DNA of 47,781 nt from Candidatus Methanoperedens sp. (GTDB taxonomy: Archaea > Halobacteriota > Methanosarcinia > Methanosarcinales > Methanoperedenaceae): contig JAPZAV010000021.1 in NCBI GenBank assembly GCA_027460465.1, forward strand, positions 1 to 47,781, read 5' to 3'. The notes beneath the pieces are model-generated. The model saw only the letters and a list, made by a program, of their open reading frames with translations, did not search any database and was not told the DNA's origin. Positions 13,219 through 23,530 of this stretch are shown piece by piece. Position 1 is the first letter of the stretch. Every line of letters starts with the position of its first letter. Made by a program: the position numbers and the translations under genes.

Positions 13219-15498
13219 CTAACCTCTTCGCTCCCTTGCAGATTTAAGCAGGAGCTGGAGCTCTGTTCTTGCCACCATCTCTCTTACAGCCTCGACAGCA
13301 TCGATATTCGCGCTGATGCTTGTGATTCCAAGCTCGACCAGGCGTTTTGCCACCTTTGGATTGCTCCCTGCCTGACCGCATATGCTCGTCTTTACACCTG
13401 CCTTGTTGCACTCGACAATCACATGCTCGATGAGCTTCATCACGGCCGGATGCATCTCATTGTATAGATGCGCAATATGCTCGTTGTTCCTGTCTACTGC
13501 AAGCGTGTACTGCGTGAGGTCGTTGGTTCCAAAGCTCACGAAATCCAGTCCCACTGCTATGAACTGGTCTATTATGAGTGCAGCCGCAGGTATTTCGACC
13601 ATTATCCCGATATCTGTTTTATCAATGTCCAGACCTTTTGACCTCATGAACTCCTTTGCCCTTCTCAATTCCGAGGGATGCTGGACAAGAGGTATCATGA
13701 TGCCCATATTACTGTAGCCGCGCTTTATCAGCTCCCTGAACGCTCGCACTTCGAGCTCGAAATGCTCTGTATCGATCAGGTCGCGCCTGATGCCGCGGTA
13801 CCCAAGCATGGGATTTGGCTCGATCGGTTCTCCCTCACCGCCTTCCATCGCCCTGAACTCATCAGTGGGCGCATCCAGGGTGCGCACCCATACAGGTTTT
13901 GGATAGAACGCATCCACAACTGTCTGTATCCTCGATACAAGCTCATTGACATATTCGTCTGCATTCCCTTCTTTGATGTACTGCTTGGGATGCTTTGGAA
14001 GTCCGAGTATCATGTGTTCGATGCGAAGAAGCCCGACACCATCAGCCTGCGTCTCAAGGGCACGGGCAGTAGCCTCAGGGATGGAGACGTTCACTTTCAC
14101 TTCAGTAGCAGTAAGGGGTTTTGATTTTGTGAACGACACTGATGCCCTGGTCTGTGACTCAGGCGCTGCCTGCACTTCCTTTTTCCCTTCAAATACAAGC
14201 CCTTTCTCACCGTCCACCGTTATCATCATCCCGTCACTCAGCAGCTCTGTCGCCTTCCTCGTGCCAACAACAGCAGGGCATCCAAGTTCACGCGACACTA
14301 TGGCTGCATGGCATGTCATACCACCTTCGTCTGTCACGATCGCAGCCGCGCGCTTCATCGCAGGCACCATGTCAGGGGTGGTCATGACCGCAACAAGTAT
14401 ATCGCCATCCTTGACCTTCCCGAGCTCTGAGGCATCAGAAATCAATTTTGCCTCACCGCACGCGATCCCTGGAGAAGCGCCAAGCCCTTCAAGTAATGCC
14501 GACATCGCTGCTTTCTCCTTTGTATCTTTTTTCTTCTTTATTGTGGTTATAGGTCTTGACTGGAGCATGAAAAACTCATGGTCCATGATCGCCCACTCCA
14601 CATCCTGAGGTATACCGTACAGATCTTCCACCACTTCGCCAAGCTCGACAAGCTTAAGAATCTCCTCGTCCTCCAGTACCTTCGCATTTTTTTTGTCATC
14701 CGGTACAGGAAGCTCGATAGTTCTTCCTGTCTTCTGGTCCCTGATATGCTGGATGTTCTTGGATGCTATTTTGCGCTCCTGGATTTTTTTTATCCTTCTG
14801 TCAATAACATAATAATCAGGAGAAACAGCACCAGAGACCACGCTCTCGCCCAGTCCCCAAGCTGCTTCGATGATTGTGAGAGGTTCTCCAGTGGATGGAT
14901 GGGACGAGAACATTACTCCTGCTTTCTCTGCATCCACCATCATCTGGACAACAGCGCACAGGTTTACTTTGCTGTGCTCAAATCCCTGCTTCACCCGGTA
15001 ATATATCGCCCTTGCGCCATACAGTGATGCCCAGCATTTCTTGACAGCTTCGATCACATTCGCATCTCCTTTGATGTTGAGGAACGTATCCTGCTGACCT
15101 GCAAAACTGGCATCTGGGAGATCTTCTGCAGTGGCGCTCGAACGCACAGCCACAAAAACCTCTTCACCTTTTCTCCCGCACAGTTCCCTGTATTTGTCCC
15201 TGATGCTCTTTTCAATGTCTTCGGGAATTTTTGCGCCGTTTATCAGTTTTTTTGCTTTTCTCTCTGCTTCTTTCAGAGTTTCTGCATCATCGACATTAAT
15301 TTCAAGTGAACTGAAAAGCTCTTCGCCGATACCATTCTCGTCAATGAACCGTCGAAATGCCTGTGCCGTCACTGCAAATCCAGCAGGGACAGGCAGTTCT
15401 GCCCTCAGCATCTCGCCCAGACTTGCACCTTTTCCACCCACGATTGCAATGTCCTCTTTTCCTACCTCTTCAAGCCATACAACCATATCATCTGTCAT
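13219..15498 (-). CDS. ppsA: Phosphoenolpyruvate synthase (pyruvate, water dikinase)
   Basis: 759 residues with all three domains: the N-terminal ATP-binding domain (GGKGASLGEM, SSATAEDLPDASFAGQQDT), the swivelling phosphohistidine domain (GGMTCHAAIVSREL with the catalytic His) and the C-terminal PEP-binding barrel (MVEIPAAAL, FGTNDLTQYTLAVDR, ICGQAGSNP). It makes PEP from pyruvate and ATP for gluconeogenesis. GGAG lies 7 bases upstream of the ATG. The start overlaps the XRE regulator gene by 11 bases, so the two form one operon and the regulator very probably controls ppsA. Confidence 0.96.
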   Translation of the reverse strand: MTDDMVVWLEEVGKEDIAIVGGKGASLGEMLRAELPVPAGFAVTAQAFRRFIDENGIGEELFSSLEINVDDAETLKEAERKAKKLINGAKIPEDIEKSIRDKYRELCGRKGEEVFVAVRSSATAEDLPDASFAGQQDTFLNIKGDANVIEAVKKCWASLYGARAIYYRVKQGFEHSKVNLCAVVQMMVDAEKAGVMFSSHPSTGEPLTIIEAAWGLGESVVSGAVSPDYYVIDRRIKKIQERKIASKNIQHIRDQKTGRTIELPVPDDKKNAKVLEDEEILKLVELGEVVEDLYGIPQDVEWAIMDHEFFMLQSRPITTIKKKKDTKEKAAMSALLEGLGASPGIACGEAKLISDASELGKVKDGDILVAVMTTPDMVPAMKRAAAIVTDEGGMTCHAAIVSRELGCPAVVGTRKATELLSDGMMITVDGEKGLVFEGKKEVQAAPESQTRASVSFTKSKPLTATEVKVNVSIPEATARALETQADGVGLLRIEHMILGLPKHPKQYIKEGNADEYVNELVSRIQTVVDAFYPKPVWVRTLDAPTDEFRAMEGGEGEPIEPNPMLGYRGIRRDLIDTEHFELEVRAFRELIKRGYSNMGIMIPLVQHPSELRRAKEFMRSKGLDIDKTDIGIMVEIPAAALIIDQFIAVGLDFVSFGTNDLTQYTLAVDRNNEHIAHLYNEMHPAVMKLIEHVIVECNKAGVKTSICGQAGSNPKVAKRLVELGITSISANIDAVEAVREMVARTELQLLLKSARERRG

Positions 15499-16036: not shown

Positions 16037-16642
16037 TTATAATGTCACATGGAGTCTTTTCGAGACAGCAGCTTTTCTCAATCTGATGTTCTCCTCGAGT
16101 ACCTCCCTGTATATTCTATTCTTTTTCAATTCATTCTGATACTCATCGTTCTGCTTCTCAAGCTCCTGATTTCTCGCTTTAAGCTTACCTATCTCTGTAT
16201 CCCTTTTTTCAAGCTCCTGCTCAAGATTCTTTATCGTGATCTCATGGCGATGCAAAGTGAATTCCAGATCTTCTTTTTCTTTCTGGTGCGCCTCAAGATA
16301 TCCATTTCTTGAATTATAACTCCTATCCTTTTGCTCAAAGTTAACTTTTCTCGGCAAAGCTGGAAGGACTGGAAGCTCTACCTGTTTGCCCATGAGCTTT
16401 TCAATAAAAAGCATGGATACCCGGTGTTCTTCAGGAGAGAGCGTCCAGGAAGGCCCTTCATGGCGCAGCTTTTCGTTCTCTGCAAGCGCGATCAGCCTTT
16501 CTGATGCTTCGGTGCTGATCCATCCAATGCTTTCATAGTATTCAAGCAAACTTGGAAGATAGTTGTGCCCCACTCTCATTAGCATGAACTGCAGCCACAG
16601 CTGCTGGGTTTTTATAGTGGTATCATCCAGTGTCTGAAGCAT
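16037..16642 (-). CDS. ArlD/E (FlaD/E)-like domain protein with long coiled coil
   Basis: 201 residues. The N-terminal half (about 12-90) carries a FlaD/E-like pattern, LWLQFMLMRVGHNYLPSLL then EYYESIGWISTEASERLIAL, like the conserved domain of archaellum accessory proteins ArlD/ArlE. Residues about 105-195 are an uninterrupted heptad coiled coil rich in Glu, Lys and Leu. No archaellum genes are near. Its ATG follows the stop of the MamK-like actin gene directly (TAGATG), so the two are translationally coupled and probably work together. A filament adaptor or anchor role is inferred. Confidence 0.7.
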   Translation of the reverse strand: MLQTLDDTTIKTQQLWLQFMLMRVGHNYLPSLLEYYESIGWISTEASERLIALAENEKLRHEGPSWTLSPEEHRVSMLFIEKLMGKQVELPVLPALPRKVNFEQKDRSYNSRNGYLEAHQKEKEDLEFTLHRHEITIKNLEQELEKRDTEIGKLKARNQELEKQNDEYQNELKKNRIYREVLEENIRLRKAAVSKRLHVTL

Positions 16643-17710
16643 CTATGCTGTGTGCCAGAACTCTTCCGGCATGTCCAATGCAAGCTTTAATGCACCTTCT
16701 GCTCCTCCGAAAACAGGGTCCTTGAAATTCTGGACCCTGGCTCCGCCGATGAGTTCAAGCCTTTGCTCCAGGACCTGTGCAAGATTCTTTATCTGGCTTC
16801 CTCCACCAGCAAGCCAGATATTGTTGCGCAAGGCATCCTGGAAATCCGGATCATAGGTCGAGATGAGTTTTGATATTCCGGCTACGATGTCAGGCAGTAT
16901 GGATTCACATGCTTCTTTCATTTCTTTTGTGATGGGAAGCTTGAGGAATGATGAGTCCACAGGGACATCCACTATGATCTCCTTTTCAGCTTCGCCAACG
17001 AAGGAATACTGTTCCTTCCATTTCTTTGCCATTTCCTGAGTGACCCTGACGTCTGTATAGCTCTCAGAGATCAGCCTTACGAACTCCCTATCAATGAAAT
17101 TCCCTGCCCTGATGCTTGTTATCTGGTCTTCAGGATCAGGGAGGGTACCGTGTACCCTGCACAGGTCTGTGGTGCCTGCCCCTATATCGACTATCAGAGA
17201 ATGCTCAAGCTGTCCCATCATGTATGCCACGCAGAAAGGTTCGCTTGCCACCATCATCCCATCAAAGAACTCACTTGCCATATCAAGGATTATTTTCTTG
17301 TTCAGCACGCTTGCCTGCGCGGGTACGCCTATGATTGCATACTTCTTGATTTCCCTGTCACCATTGACAGAGTGGAGTACGTATTCAAGCAATCCCTTCG
17401 CAGCTTCAATATCTTCTTTCTGGTTTTTTATCAATCCGTTCTCAACAGGTCGCAAAAGCTTGAGAGCAACCCTGTGTTTTAGCGCTTCCTCTCCATAGAG
17501 ATGTTCTTTTTTGAGAAACTTTGATGCAACAGGATCCCTTGGAGTCCCGACCAGACTCAGAATAGTATTTTTTTTACCATCGCTGGTGGAGATCGCGGTA
17601 TGGTTTGTACCCAGATCCACGCCTATATATAGATTTTTTTCATTTCCTGTACCATGGGTTAAAGTGTTCTTGGAATTTTTTGATGTCATATTATCACATA
17701 TCATTATCAT
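16643..17710 (-). CDS. MamK-like actin-family filament protein
   Basis: 355 residues with actin-fold nucleotide motifs: phosphate-1 LYIGVDLGTNHTAIS (about 27-41), phosphate-2 LIVDIGAGTTDLC (about 171-183) and the adenosine loop IWLAGGGSQI (about 300). Segment by segment it follows magnetosome MamK rather than MreB or crenactin: a GTPRDPVASKFL region, EALKHR...LRPVENGLIK, VASEPFCVAY, AGNFIDREF, WKEQYSFVGE and the final FKDPVFGGAEGALKLA. MamK polymerises into cytoplasmic filaments that position organelles. No other magnetosome gene is present. It is coupled to the coiled-coil gene downstream. The start is uncertain; Met8 is an alternative. Confidence 0.85.
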   Translation of the reverse strand: MIMICDNMTSKNSKNTLTHGTGNEKNLYIGVDLGTNHTAISTSDGKKNTILSLVGTPRDPVASKFLKKEHLYGEEALKHRVALKLLRPVENGLIKNQKEDIEAAKGLLEYVLHSVNGDREIKKYAIIGVPAQASVLNKKIILDMASEFFDGMMVASEPFCVAYMMGQLEHSLIVDIGAGTTDLCRVHGTLPDPEDQITSIRAGNFIDREFVRLISESYTDVRVTQEMAKKWKEQYSFVGEAEKEIIVDVPVDSSFLKLPITKEMKEACESILPDIVAGISKLISTYDPDFQDALRNNIWLAGGGSQIKNLAQVLEQRLELIGGARVQNFKDPVFGGAEGALKLALDMPEEFWHTA

Positions 17711-17815: not shown

Positions 17816-18202
17816 ATGGTTCAGATCTTGAACGAATATGATCTATATAAGTTCATGGAATTAATAATGTTTGCATTATATTTAGTATTTATATTTTTAT
17901 CTATTCAGATATTTTTCCTATGGAAAGATCTCAATAAAACCGAACTGAAAGTGAAATCATTTATGAACGATTCGTTCTTCAAAAGAAATTCTATTTATGT
18001 TTTCTCGTTCAGCGTATTCTTCATGCTCCATGAAATCCTTGAAGGAACAAGCCTGCCCAACGCTATGTTATACTTTGAATTCCTGGAGATACTGGGATTA
18101 TCATGCCTGGTAATATTTGCTCATGGATGGTACAGGGCTTTGAAAGCTTCTGTGAAGAAAAAACCCATTCCTCGCGAGCTTATTAATTTAAAGACCATCT
18201 GA
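17816..18202 (+). CDS. Predicted membrane protein, three to four helices
   Basis: 128 residues. Hydrophobic spans at about 14-36 (MELIMFALYLVFIFLSIQIF), 60-75 (SIYVFSFSVFFML) and 88-108 (FEFLEILGLSCLVIFAHGW), with basic ends. A conserved-looking HEILEG follows the second span. No family is recognised. GATAGG precedes the ATG. It is divergent from the MamK-like operon, sharing a 105-base promoter region, which makes a link with that system possible but unproven. Confidence 0.6.
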   Translation: MVQILNEYDLYKFMELIMFALYLVFIFLSIQIFFLWKDLNKTELKVKSFMNDSFFKRNSIYVFSFSVFFMLHEILEGTSLPNAMLYFEFLEILGLSCLVIFAHGWYRALKASVKKKPIPRELINLKTI

Positions 18203-18293: not shown

Positions 18294-18965
18294 ATGATTG
18301 TGGTCAGCGAAGATGAAGATGAGAGCGACTCTAGTCCGTTACTTTTTTTGGGGCAACCAGTATACGAAAGCGTACTTAATATCAACCACGATTACCGTTA
18401 TCTGAGGATGGGATATTATGTATCTGCGCATGCTGAGACCTATGGAGTAGAGGTTACACCGAGCTGCACAGAGATAATGGATGCATACAGGAATCCGCTC
18501 CTGATAGAGAAGGCAAGGAGGCATGGATTGCTTGCCGGCAATTACAGCCTTATAACAAAACCCAGGGATGACCTTTCTGGTCCTGTGATGTTATTCGCAG
18601 TAAACCCTTTCACCAATAACTCAATGAAGATAGTGAGATCAGACAGAAGACTGCCAGGGATGATAAGAAAAATGAGCATGGATGCAAGGTTCCCGGTTTC
18701 TCTGCATCCTCTGCTGGGCGAAGTGCATGAGATCGTGCAGATGTTCGGCGAATCTACTTTTGATGAGGCATCAAAATTCACAGAGAGATTTTTCAAGATA
18801 TTCAACATCCCTATATGCAAATTGATCGTACAGATAGATGATGGGGATGTTATTCTCAACCACTGCGAACCTGCTCTGAAAAAAGAAGTGAAGTGGGATA
18901 TCGTGCATGAGAAAGTGCATGAGATCGGAATGAAAAAGCAACATGAAAATAGCCTGCTTTGTTGA
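18294..18965 (+). CDS. RLAN-domain protein (partner of a RimK-like ligase)
   Basis: 223 residues. After an acidic N-terminus, residues about 22-75 (SVLNINHDYRYLRMGYYVSA, HAETYGVEVTPSC) match the RimK-like ATP-grasp N-terminal (RLAN) domain. In many bacteria this domain is fused to the ligase; here it is a separate gene. The C-terminal half has TERFFKIFNIPICKLIVQ. It overlaps the next gene by 23 bases, so it is made together with the ATP-grasp ligase and probably forms a complex with it. Confidence 0.75.
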   Translation: MIVVSEDEDESDSSPLLFLGQPVYESVLNINHDYRYLRMGYYVSAHAETYGVEVTPSCTEIMDAYRNPLLIEKARRHGLLAGNYSLITKPRDDLSGPVMLFAVNPFTNNSMKIVRSDRRLPGMIRKMSMDARFPVSLHPLLGEVHEIVQMFGESTFDEASKFTERFFKIFNIPICKLIVQIDDGDVILNHCEPALKKEVKWDIVHEKVHEIGMKKQHENSLLC

Positions 18966-19809
18966 AGCGTATAATTTTAATAACAAACCGGAACGCTGCG
19001 CTCTTTCAAAATTCAAATCCACTGCTGAATCAATGGGGCATACGTTCGAATTCATTTTCAAGGACCGCATTTCAGAGATCAAAGAATACGATAGTTTATT
19101 CATACGTTCCATAACAGATCCGAACAATTCTGCGTACATTGTCTCAAGACTGGCAGAACAGGCAGGAGTCAGGGTGATCGATGATCCGCATTCGATCAGG
19201 GTTTGTTCAAACAAAGCTGTGCTTTACGATCTCTTCCTGAAAAATAATATTCCATCTCCAGATTCCCTTTTATTTACAGGTGATTATTCAGGGGAAAATC
19301 TTGACAGGATATTCGATACCCTGGGAACACCGGTTATAATCAAAACTCCCTATACCAGGTTCTCATCTCATGTAGAGAAAGCTCATAATGAAAAGGAATT
19401 CACTGAGATTTCAAAGAAATTCCTTACGAAATCAAAAGTCCTTATCATCCAGGAATATATTCATTCAGATTTTGACTGGCGTGTGGGGATACTTCAAAAT
19501 AAGATACTTTACATGTGCAAATATTGCATACCCGAAGGAGGATGGAAGGTAAAATCGAAAATAAATGGAAAAAACGTATGGGGGGATACAATCGCATTGC
19601 CCAGGGAAATGATATCTCCGGAATTAAGAAAGATCTGCATTGACCTTTCAAAGTGCGTCGGGGATGGGCTTTATGGACTTGATGTCAAAGAAACAATTAA
19701 CGGGTATAAAGTTATCGAGATAAATGATAACCCCAGCATCTACGAAGGCTATGAGGATACTGCGGATAAGGATATATACGAAAAAATCATAAGCGCACTT
19801 GTATCATGA
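18943..19809 (+). CDS. RimK-type ATP-grasp carboxylate-amine ligase
   Basis: 288 residues with the ATP-grasp layout: N-terminal Rossmann-like region (1-90), NKAVLYDLFLKNNIPSP, TLGTPVIIKTPYTRFSSHVE (ATP-binding lysine), IIQEYIHSDFDWRVGIL, GDGLYGLDVKE and the metal-binding VIEINDNPSIYEG (Glu and Asn). Such enzymes join an amino acid to a carboxylate via an acyl phosphate, as in RimK or lysine-modification ligases. It is coupled to the RLAN gene and convergent with a GCS2 ligase. The substrate is unknown. Confidence 0.88.
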   Translation: MKIACFVEAYNFNNKPERCALSKFKSTAESMGHTFEFIFKDRISEIKEYDSLFIRSITDPNNSAYIVSRLAEQAGVRVIDDPHSIRVCSNKAVLYDLFLKNNIPSPDSLLFTGDYSGENLDRIFDTLGTPVIIKTPYTRFSSHVEKAHNEKEFTEISKKFLTKSKVLIIQEYIHSDFDWRVGILQNKILYMCKYCIPEGGWKVKSKINGKNVWGDTIALPREMISPELRKICIDLSKCVGDGLYGLDVKETINGYKVIEINDNPSIYEGYEDTADKDIYEKIISALVS

Positions 19810-20934
19810 TCATCTTTTCATCTGATGACAGGTATATGGCTGGTTGCTCCTGAGGGCTTTTTCCATACTGACCATGATTTCCAGCATATCCCCGGTATCT
19901 TTAAACCTGTCCTGCATCCTCTCTGCAATACTTCCATGAATGATACGGTCTTCAATGATCTGAAGAAACTTCTTCTCTTCGTTTGTCGCAGCATCCCGTG
20001 CCCCGGACAGCAGGCGTTCCAGTTCAGGCTGAAGCGCTCTCGTACCTTTTTTAATAGCAAGCTCTGTCAGATCAAGGAGGATATCCCGATCTGTCTCCAC
20101 GGGAACGTCCCTGGCACGAACGAGTGCCATGAGAAATGCACACACCGCCATATCAGATCTCACACATTCCTGCTCGTCAATTGCTTTTACTTCCACACAT
20201 CCTCGTGAAAACCTGATGATGAGACCTGAGGAGTTCAGCCATTCCTTGCGGAGGATATGGGCATCTCTATTTTCGAGTTCCCTGAAAATTTCCTGCTGAT
20301 TTTCGAGATAATCGTTGACTTCAGAAATTGTTTCAGGGATAATTCGGTTGCAGATCTGCGGGATCTCCTTCTGGTTCTTTCGGTAAAATAGGAGCCTGTT
20401 ATCCATCGAGCCTGTAACTTTTCCTTCTACGAAGGGCGAGGAGGCTGATACTGCAATAAGGTACGGCAGAAGTGAACGGATCCTGTTGTAAAGGTAAATC
20501 AGTTCTTCGTCATTGCTGTAGGAAAGGTTGACCTGCAGTGCCTGGATATTCAGCCATCCATGCTGCCTGATATTGAAGAGCCTGTCATAGACTTCATAAT
20601 ATTCCTTTTCATCATGATTCCAGACTGCTGTCTTATCGAGGGTCAGCGTGGGGTGCATTCCGAGCCCTAAAAGATGGTATCGATCCCCAAACTGCAGATA
20701 AAACCTGCGAATCCCGGAATATATCTGCCTTTCCAGCTCAAAAAGGCTGTCACCTGGATGATCTGGAATGAATTCAAGAACTGTCTTCTGCAGTTCTTTT
20801 GAGAGTGTGACCTCACCAAAAGAGACCTCATTTTTTACGCTGCCTGCGATCTTTGAAAGAATCACATCTGAGATCGGGAGTGGATTGAAGTTGCGGTCGT
20901 TTATTGAGTATTCATGTTCTGTGCCGATTGTCAT
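19810..20934 (-). CDS. GCS2-family carboxylate-amine ligase (glutamate-cysteine ligase-like)
   Basis: 374 residues. The N-terminal TIGTEHEYSINDRNFNPLP is the ATP and substrate-binding signature of the GCS2/YbdK family; LLGLGMHPTL, LNIQALQVNLSYSNDEE and VSASSPFVEGKVTGSMDNR follow, with the cysteine-ligase-like core running to about residue 270. It ligates glutamate or a similar acid to an amine in an ATP-dependent reaction. The convergent ATP-grasp/RLAN pair ends at 19809, next to its stop. The same three families have been noted together in predicted peptide-modifying systems. Confidence 0.85.
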   Translation of the reverse strand: MTIGTEHEYSINDRNFNPLPISDVILSKIAGSVKNEVSFGEVTLSKELQKTVLEFIPDHPGDSLFELERQIYSGIRRFYLQFGDRYHLLGLGMHPTLTLDKTAVWNHDEKEYYEVYDRLFNIRQHGWLNIQALQVNLSYSNDEELIYLYNRIRSLLPYLIAVSASSPFVEGKVTGSMDNRLLFYRKNQKEIPQICNRIIPETISEVNDYLENQQEIFRELENRDAHILRKEWLNSSGLIIRFSRGCVEVKAIDEQECVRSDMAVCAFLMALVRARDVPVETDRDILLDLTELAIKKGTRALQPELERLLSGARDAATNEEKKFLQIIEDRIIHGSIAERMQDRFKDTGDMLEIMVSMEKALRSNQPYTCHQMKR

Positions 20935-22426: not shown

Positions 22427-23530
22427 TCAGGAGGCTTTCAATCTCTTTCCGCCTGCAACGAATCCAGCATGGCAGTCAGAACAGAATTTGGGCAGATGGC
22501 AGTCGCTGCACACCTTTCCTATCAAAACCTCTTTCTTATGTGTCATTAACCAGTCCTCCGGATGCTCCTGACTGTGGCAGGTAGCGCATAAATTTTCCTT
22601 TATTTTTGGTTCATGCTTTACATTGGAGTGGCACTCGTAGCAGGCGATCTTATTATTCGTGACATGATTCTTATGTATGAAACTGAAATCGTCGTACTTG
22701 TCCACTCTTCCCTTGACATTATGACATGAATAGCACTTGCTCTTCGGGACTATGTCGTTGGCACCTGTGGAGAGATTGATATGGCAGGTCAGGCAATCAT
22801 ATCCCTTGTTAATATGGATGGAATGGTTGAAGCTTGTATAATTTTTATGCGTCTGTTTTGGCGCACCATGACATGAAGGGCATCCTGATATGGATGTATT
22901 TCCGGGTACATCTCTGAAGTGGCATGTGAAACAGGTTGAAGTGGTCACCACGATATGCCCGATATCCTGCTGGATTATATTCGGATGGCACTGACTGCAG
23001 GAAGGATCTGTTACAGACCTGTGCTCACTCATACCGATCACAAGCATGGAATGACAGCTTGTGCATGTCAATCCTATGCCTCTTCTTGACTGAAGCAAAT
23101 GGTTCTTATGGCTGAAATTCACACCCATATAGTTTATATCTGAAGAAAATATACGCTGTTCATGGCAGAGAAGGCAATTCTTATCCATTACTCTTGCATA
23201 TAATTTCCCGGAATAATCTTCAACTGTGGTCTCATAGCTGTAAAACTGCATGAGCCCGTTGATCTTGCCTCTGATATGACCTACAAGTCCGGGTTCATAA
23301 TGACATTCTACGCATCTGACATCATTATGGGATGAAGTACGCCAGGAATCATAATATGGTCTCATGATATGGCAGTTCTTTCCACAGAAGGCAGGATTTT
23401 CAGTTATATCAAGCACTTTTTCAGAAACCACAGCCACTGCCGAGAACAAAAGTATGAGAACGATCGCTATCGGCACTTTATGTTCCAGAATCCAATTCTT
23501 AATGATAGATGCTATTGATTGATTATCCAT
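22427..23530 (-). CDS. NapC/NirT-type membrane-anchored multiheme cytochrome c (13 heme motifs)
   Basis: 367 residues. One N-terminal membrane helix (VPIAIVLILLFSAVAVVSEK), then 12 CxxCH motifs (CVECH, CLLCH, CTSCH, CSQCH, CFTCH, CPSCH, CLTCH, CYSCH, CYECH, CATCH and CSDCH twice) plus a first, non-canonical CGKNCH (CX3CH) followed by IM, the position that binds the quinol-facing heme in NapC/NrfH. The first four motifs correspond to the NapC/NirT domain; the rest form a heme wire. It lies 9 bases after the 6-heme gene and is the last gene of the cluster. A role in quinol oxidation or electron export is inferred. Confidence 0.92.
   Translation of the reverse strand: MDNQSIASIIKNWILEHKVPIAIVLILLFSAVAVVSEKVLDITENPAFCGKNCHIMRPYYDSWRTSSHNDVRCVECHYEPGLVGHIRGKINGLMQFYSYETTVEDYSGKLYARVMDKNCLLCHEQRIFSSDINYMGVNFSHKNHLLQSRRGIGLTCTSCHSMLVIGMSEHRSVTDPSCSQCHPNIIQQDIGHIVVTTSTCFTCHFRDVPGNTSISGCPSCHGAPKQTHKNYTSFNHSIHINKGYDCLTCHINLSTGANDIVPKSKCYSCHNVKGRVDKYDDFSFIHKNHVTNNKIACYECHSNVKHEPKIKENLCATCHSQEHPEDWLMTHKKEVLIGKVCSDCHLPKFCSDCHAGFVAGGKRLKAS

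Follow-up and report, generated by a model that had tools for sequence, protein, structure and literature searches.

A conserved gene pair encoding a MamK-like actin and a coiled-coil partner, usually with an ArlD/E-type head, in Candidatus Methanoperedens and related archaea

What might an archaeon organise with an actin that resembles MamK, the actin of magnetosome bacteria? The question is raised by a locus in a Candidatus Methanoperedens genome (G000; 2.87 Mb in 176 contigs), located on a stretch of 47,781 nucleotides that is referred to in its entirety as the window. Except in Asgard archaea, crenarchaea, and haloarchaea, very little has been learned about what archaeal actins do. An earlier note on this DNA had proposed that the actin and the gene directly behind it form an undescribed cytoskeletal module, possibly positioning a membrane system or the chemotaxis and motility apparatus. 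The locus comprises the following features:

16643–17710, minus strand: MamK-like actin, 355 amino acids as listed, probably 348 amino acids from the ATG at 17689; nucleotide-pocket motifs intact
16037–16642, minus strand: partner (adaptor) protein, 201 amino acids; ATG directly after the actin stop
16391–16600, minus strand: ArlD/E-type (Arch_fla_DE) head domain of the partner, residues 15–84
16043–16309, minus strand: predicted single long helix (coiled coil) of the partner, residues 112–200
16073–16294, minus strand: C-terminal module of the partner, common to all four lineages; proposed actin-binding part
17816–18202, plus strand: divergent gene for a small membrane protein; rejected as part of the module, beside the actin in only one other genome
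15488–15964, minus strand: downstream HTH regulator; not part of the module, with synteny in 11 Methanoperedens loci and none elsewhere
13219–15498: PEP-synthase-like gene, downstream together with the HTH regulator; not part of the module, synteny in the same 11 loci

Both reading frames of the proposed module are present as described in the earlier note, and the TAG of the actin is followed by the ATG of the partner without any gap. The listed start of the actin at 17710 is probably too early, as judged from the N-termini of its relatives. The divergent membrane gene also exists, but it was rejected as a third component because it is kept beside the actin in a single relative. The HTH regulator and the PEP-synthase-like gene, whose synteny is limited to part of the genus, were discarded likewise. 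Elsewhere in the window (18294–20934), a RimK-type ATP-grasp protein is split into an ORF for the N-terminal domain and a RimK-like ORF that overlap by 23 bases; they are convergent with a glutamate-cysteine-ligase-like gene, and together these genes possibly represent a cluster for peptide or thiol biosynthesis. A multihaem cytochrome-like protein that is rich in CxxCH motifs and anchored in the membrane (22427–23530) is as expected for the organism.

The actin is of the MamK type over its full length rather than of the MreB type. It matched the NCBIfam model of MamK (NF040964) over the whole length at 7.8e-118 (393 bits), followed by the models of BeeR (1.5e-57, 195 bits), MreB (3.3e-15, 56 bits), and salactin (6.7e-11, 41.9 bits; below the NCBIfam cut-off of 400 bits). 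A sequence search of the PDB returned MamK (2.7e-79), BeeR (1.6e-30), and MreB (8.5e-13), and the best fold match of the AlphaFold model (pLDDT 89.5) was the subunit of the MamK filament (5ljv; TM 0.88/0.96, 40% identity), with BeeR at 26% identity. MamK and BeeR head both the sequence and the fold list, and crenactin is absent among the matches listed. Within the sample of the phylum, the MamK model separates the actin family (E < 1e-51) by a wide gap from all other proteins (1e-18 or weaker). Because its score of 393 bits lies just under the NCBI cut-off for MamK (400 bits), which no protein reached in any of the 393 genomes of the phylum, the actin is better called a sister family of MamK than MamK itself.

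Homologs of the actin occur in 54 of 238 genomes of the class, which fall into four lineages: Methanoperedens, an ANME-2-like family, an ANME-3-like genus, and a Methanolobus-like genus (apart from Methanoperedens, the names were assigned on the basis of family structure and of what is known about the group, hence “-like”). The gene is present in a single copy in the genome of the window; it was found in 19 of the 31 Methanoperedens genomes and is absent from the other 12. Its recurrence in this genus and in three further lineages, together with low dN/dS values (0.08–0.14 where calculable), indicates that the locus is not a product of chance. In a maximum-likelihood tree, the 41 archaeal actins form one clade (100/99) whose nearest neighbor is MamK (90/55; represented by a single sequence), with salactin-like proteins, BeeR, and MreB outside. 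Each of the four lineages forms one group within this clade, which suits vertical descent with losses but would also be compatible with transfer.

The partner is the next gene on the actin strand in all 41 loci inspected, with gaps of −4 to 46 bases (the locus of G028 was counted through the match to the partner's C-terminal module), and is the sole neighbor of the actin common to all lineages. The earlier note had named two outcomes that would speak against a module, namely a branching of the actin with MreB- or DnaK-type proteins and a restriction of the pair to one genome. Neither occurred: the actin groups nearest to MamK and not with MreB, and the two-gene order is conserved across Methanosarcinales and ANME-like lineages.

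The nucleotide pocket of the actin differs among the lineages. The phosphate-binding and catalytic motifs of the window actin (GVDLGT, SEPF, VDIGAGTTD, and AGGGS) are intact. In the aligned rows of the Methanolobus-like actins (L043–L053, L072, and L073), GAGTTD is replaced by GASKLD, GASKTD, or GSGKTD, and SEPF by DELF, NGLF, or NGPF. These altered motifs suggest that the proteins may be poor ATPases, with altered or lost ATP hydrolysis; the partner gene is nevertheless still linked. At the position of A278 in MamK, where the mutation A278D renders the protein non-polymerising, archaeal actins often carry D or E (A in some), which implies that the contact within the filament is either different or compensated for.

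The partner protein of the window combines an ArlD/E-type head with a long coiled coil, much as had been read from the sequence (where the coiled coil was put at 90 residues). It matched Arch_fla_DE of Pfam at 4.3e-17 (62.3 bits, gathering score 21) in residues 15–84, and its model consists of four helices (residues 7–83), a disordered linker, and one predicted helix of 89 residues (112–200). The head is 42% identical over 86 residues to the ArlD/E domain of the archaellum cluster in the same genome, which is encoded on a different contig. In a tree of the short domain, the archaellum copies of ArlD/E form one branch apart from the adaptors (99/100). PF05377 (ArlC) gave only a match under the cut-off (0.0034), located in the coiled coil. 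The PDB yielded no significant structural relatives of the head and no sequence match, and a search for defence systems returned only weak coiled-coil matches.

Across the lineages, the partners range from 190 to 1940 amino acids. Those of Methanoperedens (190–214 amino acids) have the layout of an ArlD/E-type head, a disordered linker, and one 89-residue helix. The head is also N-terminal in the partners of the ANME-2-like family (up to 1940 amino acids) and the ANME-3-like genus (630 amino acids or more), and the Arch_fla_DE matches of the three lineages range from 4e-7 to 4e-17. It is absent from the Methanolobus-like partners (450–607 amino acids), which start with a conserved FTPNIYRKP motif and contain no detectable relic of the head. 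An actin-less Methanoperedens encodes a second ArlD/E protein whose N-terminal region is long and repeat-like (L087:1423-2733), and similar second copies occur in G001, G027, and G029. Such copies were rejected as adaptors of actin-less Methanoperedens: the one examined (L087) is an ArlD/E-like protein and not the adaptor.

What the partners of all four lineages share is a C-terminal module of approximately 75 residues, in which an R, I, L, and N are invariant. When 6165 frames were searched with a model built only from the Methanolobus-like rows, the partners of Methanoperedens were recovered at about 1e-5 to 1e-9, and single-lineage models in general recovered the other lineages and almost nothing else, which argues that the likeness of these sequences is homology and not a generic property of coiled coils. 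Strong matches within the class are limited to actin-bearing genomes and two others (G123 and G058), and there are none in the 12 actin-less Methanoperedens. Because it is the only part common to all partners and co-occurs with the actin, the module is probably the actin-binding part. It is found also in a second, unlinked coiled-coil protein of about 285 amino acids in Methanolobus-like genomes (L111–L116, L120–L123) and as a stand-alone version of 82–83 amino acids in the ANME-3-like genus (L117:5168-5419, L118:8675-8923), suggesting that the actin may be a common docking site for several proteins.

The head domain directs attention to the archaellum. Reported interaction partners of ArlCDE are ArlH and CheF; the three proteins have been suggested to form a cytosolic ring around the motor and possibly touch the polar cap, a structure associated with chemosensory arrays (PMC8978795). 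Among the 54 actin-bearing genomes, 45 encode CheA and 47 archaellin, and the only two that encode neither are 60–74% complete. The association of the actin with CheA, or with either CheA or archaellin, is strong across the class (p about 1e-9) but weak within lineages (p 0.007–0.06 for the better cases, and none for archaellin in Methanoperedens), and therefore largely reflects kinship. In 5 of the 13 Methanolobus-like loci inspected, MCP/CheW/CheR-type genes are located close upstream. Against a link of the head to the archaellum, the Methanolobus-like genomes have archaellins although their partners carry no head.

Two ANME-2-like genomes, G034 (100% complete) and G038 (97%), possess the actin pair but neither archaellin nor any other ArlD/E protein. 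Both carry a che cluster (L107 and L110; in G034 with MCP, CheW, CheA, CheR, CheC, and CheD), with no match to CheF. Conversely, the genome of the window has an archaellum cluster but no CheA. The module is thus strictly dependent on neither system: archaellum dependence is ruled out by G034 and G038, and CheA dependence by G000, G013, G017, and the ANME-3-like G186. CheF was rejected as a universal partner of the head, as the search detected it neither in Methanoperedens nor in those ANME-2-like genomes that encode the actin. Most Methanoperedens have archaellins and many have CheA, and the link between chemotaxis and archaellum may be different in this genus. The earlier suggestion that the module possibly positions the chemotaxis or motility apparatus is neither confirmed nor refuted: the class-wide association is suggestive, but it is broken on each side by near-complete genomes. 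A cargo belonging to motility or chemosensing is plausible, though unproven.

The pair is probably a two-gene cytoskeletal module, in which an actin filament is joined to a dedicated tether whose N-terminal head docks a cargo. Judging from its fold and intact pocket, the actin would polymerise with ATP into a MamK-type filament, and the partner would bind it via the conserved C-terminal end of the coiled coil. There are precedents for such a contact: the C-terminal helix of arcadin-2 sits in the hydrophobic groove of crenactin, and the corresponding groove of ParM is the binding site of ParR (PMC5173319). The coiled coil, whose length varies roughly tenfold between lineages, would serve as spacer and tether, and the N-terminal head, which is of the ArlD/E type in Methanoperedens and the other ANME-like groups, would dock the cargo. 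Tentatively, this cargo may be a cytoplasmic assembly that is also contacted by the ArlD/E proteins of archaella, either the motor ring or a polar cap with chemosensory arrays. It is conceivable, albeit somewhat doubtful, that the base of the archaellum and the chemosensory arrays (or an organiser resembling the polar cap) are tethered via the ArlD/E-headed coiled coil to an actin filament that is ancestral to Methanosarcinales and was retained in ANME lineages even where these lack the archaellum.

Some of the same observations would fit a structural cross-linker, i.e., a partner that self-associates via coiled coil and head and bundles filaments in the service of cell shape, division, or the architecture of aggregates, independently of motility. 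The independence of the pair from archaella or CheA in some near-complete genomes, the variation in partner length, and the additional proteins carrying the C-terminal module all speak for such a role, which is possible but rather unlikely in view of a head that is specifically of the ArlD/E type and an actin whose presence leans towards genomes with motility or chemosensory genes. It is unlikely that the partner is mainly a regulator that sequesters or depolymerises the actin, with a head that senses a signal and binds no cargo. The layout with a conserved C-terminal helix behind a variable linker does resemble arcadin-2, which acts on crenactin (PMC5173319), and the position of the gene at the actin stop codon suggests matched amounts of the two proteins; partners of 450–1940 amino acids that consist almost wholly of coiled coil, however, look like spacers or bundlers rather than sequesterers of monomers.

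The remaining explanations concern the actin itself. A ParM/Alp-type actin that segregates plasmids or chromosomes with the help of an adaptor would accord with the groove-binding of ParR, but is very improbable: the match to the ParM family of Pfam is under the cut-off (0.01), the gene is single copy, the adaptor as sole conserved neighbor is not accompanied by a partition-type partner, and there are no close relatives on plasmids and none in viral contigs. That the actin is a true magnetosome MamK, gained together with magnetosome genes or surviving from a former set of them, has scarcely any credibility. Although the similarity of the actin is highest to MamK, its score stays just below the cut-off for that family, its archaeal relatives group with it in a single clade following the lineages, and no MamB above the cut-off was detected in the 60 genomes searched, including that of the window, which bears out, for the MamB class, the absence of magnetosome genes noted earlier.

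The favored module of filament and tether points to an internal scaffold without published description in methane-oxidising archaea and some of their methanogenic relatives. In line with the earlier note, to whose author no description of such a module was known, the open-licence literature searched yielded no paper that joins MamK, archaea, and Methanoperedens and none describing the actin–partner pair, and the text of the main comparative paper on ANME genomes does not mention actin or the cytoskeleton. A conserved and testable pair is now available in ANME archaea, whose role in the methane cycle is central but of which there are no pure cultures, and also in a genus that is apparently Methanolobus, which has cultured species. 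The results suggest that actins of the MamK type also exist outside magnetosome bacteria, a point of relevance to the origin of MamK, and the pair may help to reveal the organiser of the polar cap and motor in archaea.

Among the known systems, MamK (PDB 5LJV, 5JYG) is the closest, with full-length homology, approximately 40% identity, and the best structural match; in deep-branching magnetotactic bacteria, it likewise acts with coiled-coil proteins (PMC12748827). The window actin differs in being archaeal, in belonging to a separate clade, in scoring below the NCBI cut-off, in coming from a genome in which no MamB above the cut-off was detected, in its ArlD/E-headed partner, and in the acidic residue that its family often carries at the A278 position. 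BeeR, a three-stranded bacterial actin (PMC11929497), is the next best match (1.5e-57, and 26% identity in the fold search) but clearly more distant than MamK. Salactin is also an archaeal (haloarchaeal) actin, reported in Methanotecta and as the subfamily closest to MamK (PMC10746226); the window actin matches its model at only 6.7e-11, salactin falls outside the clade, and the passages of that paper that were consulted contain neither an archaeal MamK-like pair nor such a partner. Crenactin (PMC5173319) is another archaeal actin, and the gene of its partner arcadin-2, which likewise has a conserved helix at its end, is clustered with it; crenactin, however, apparently belongs to a different subfamily, arcadin-2 is a depolymeriser, and the likeness noted between the partners is one of layout. 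In contrast to the ArlD/E components of the archaellum, the partner has no ArlC domain above the cut-off, is unlinked to the archaellum cluster, and is present also in genomes without archaellin, yet its head retains 42% identity to the archaellum protein of its own genome.
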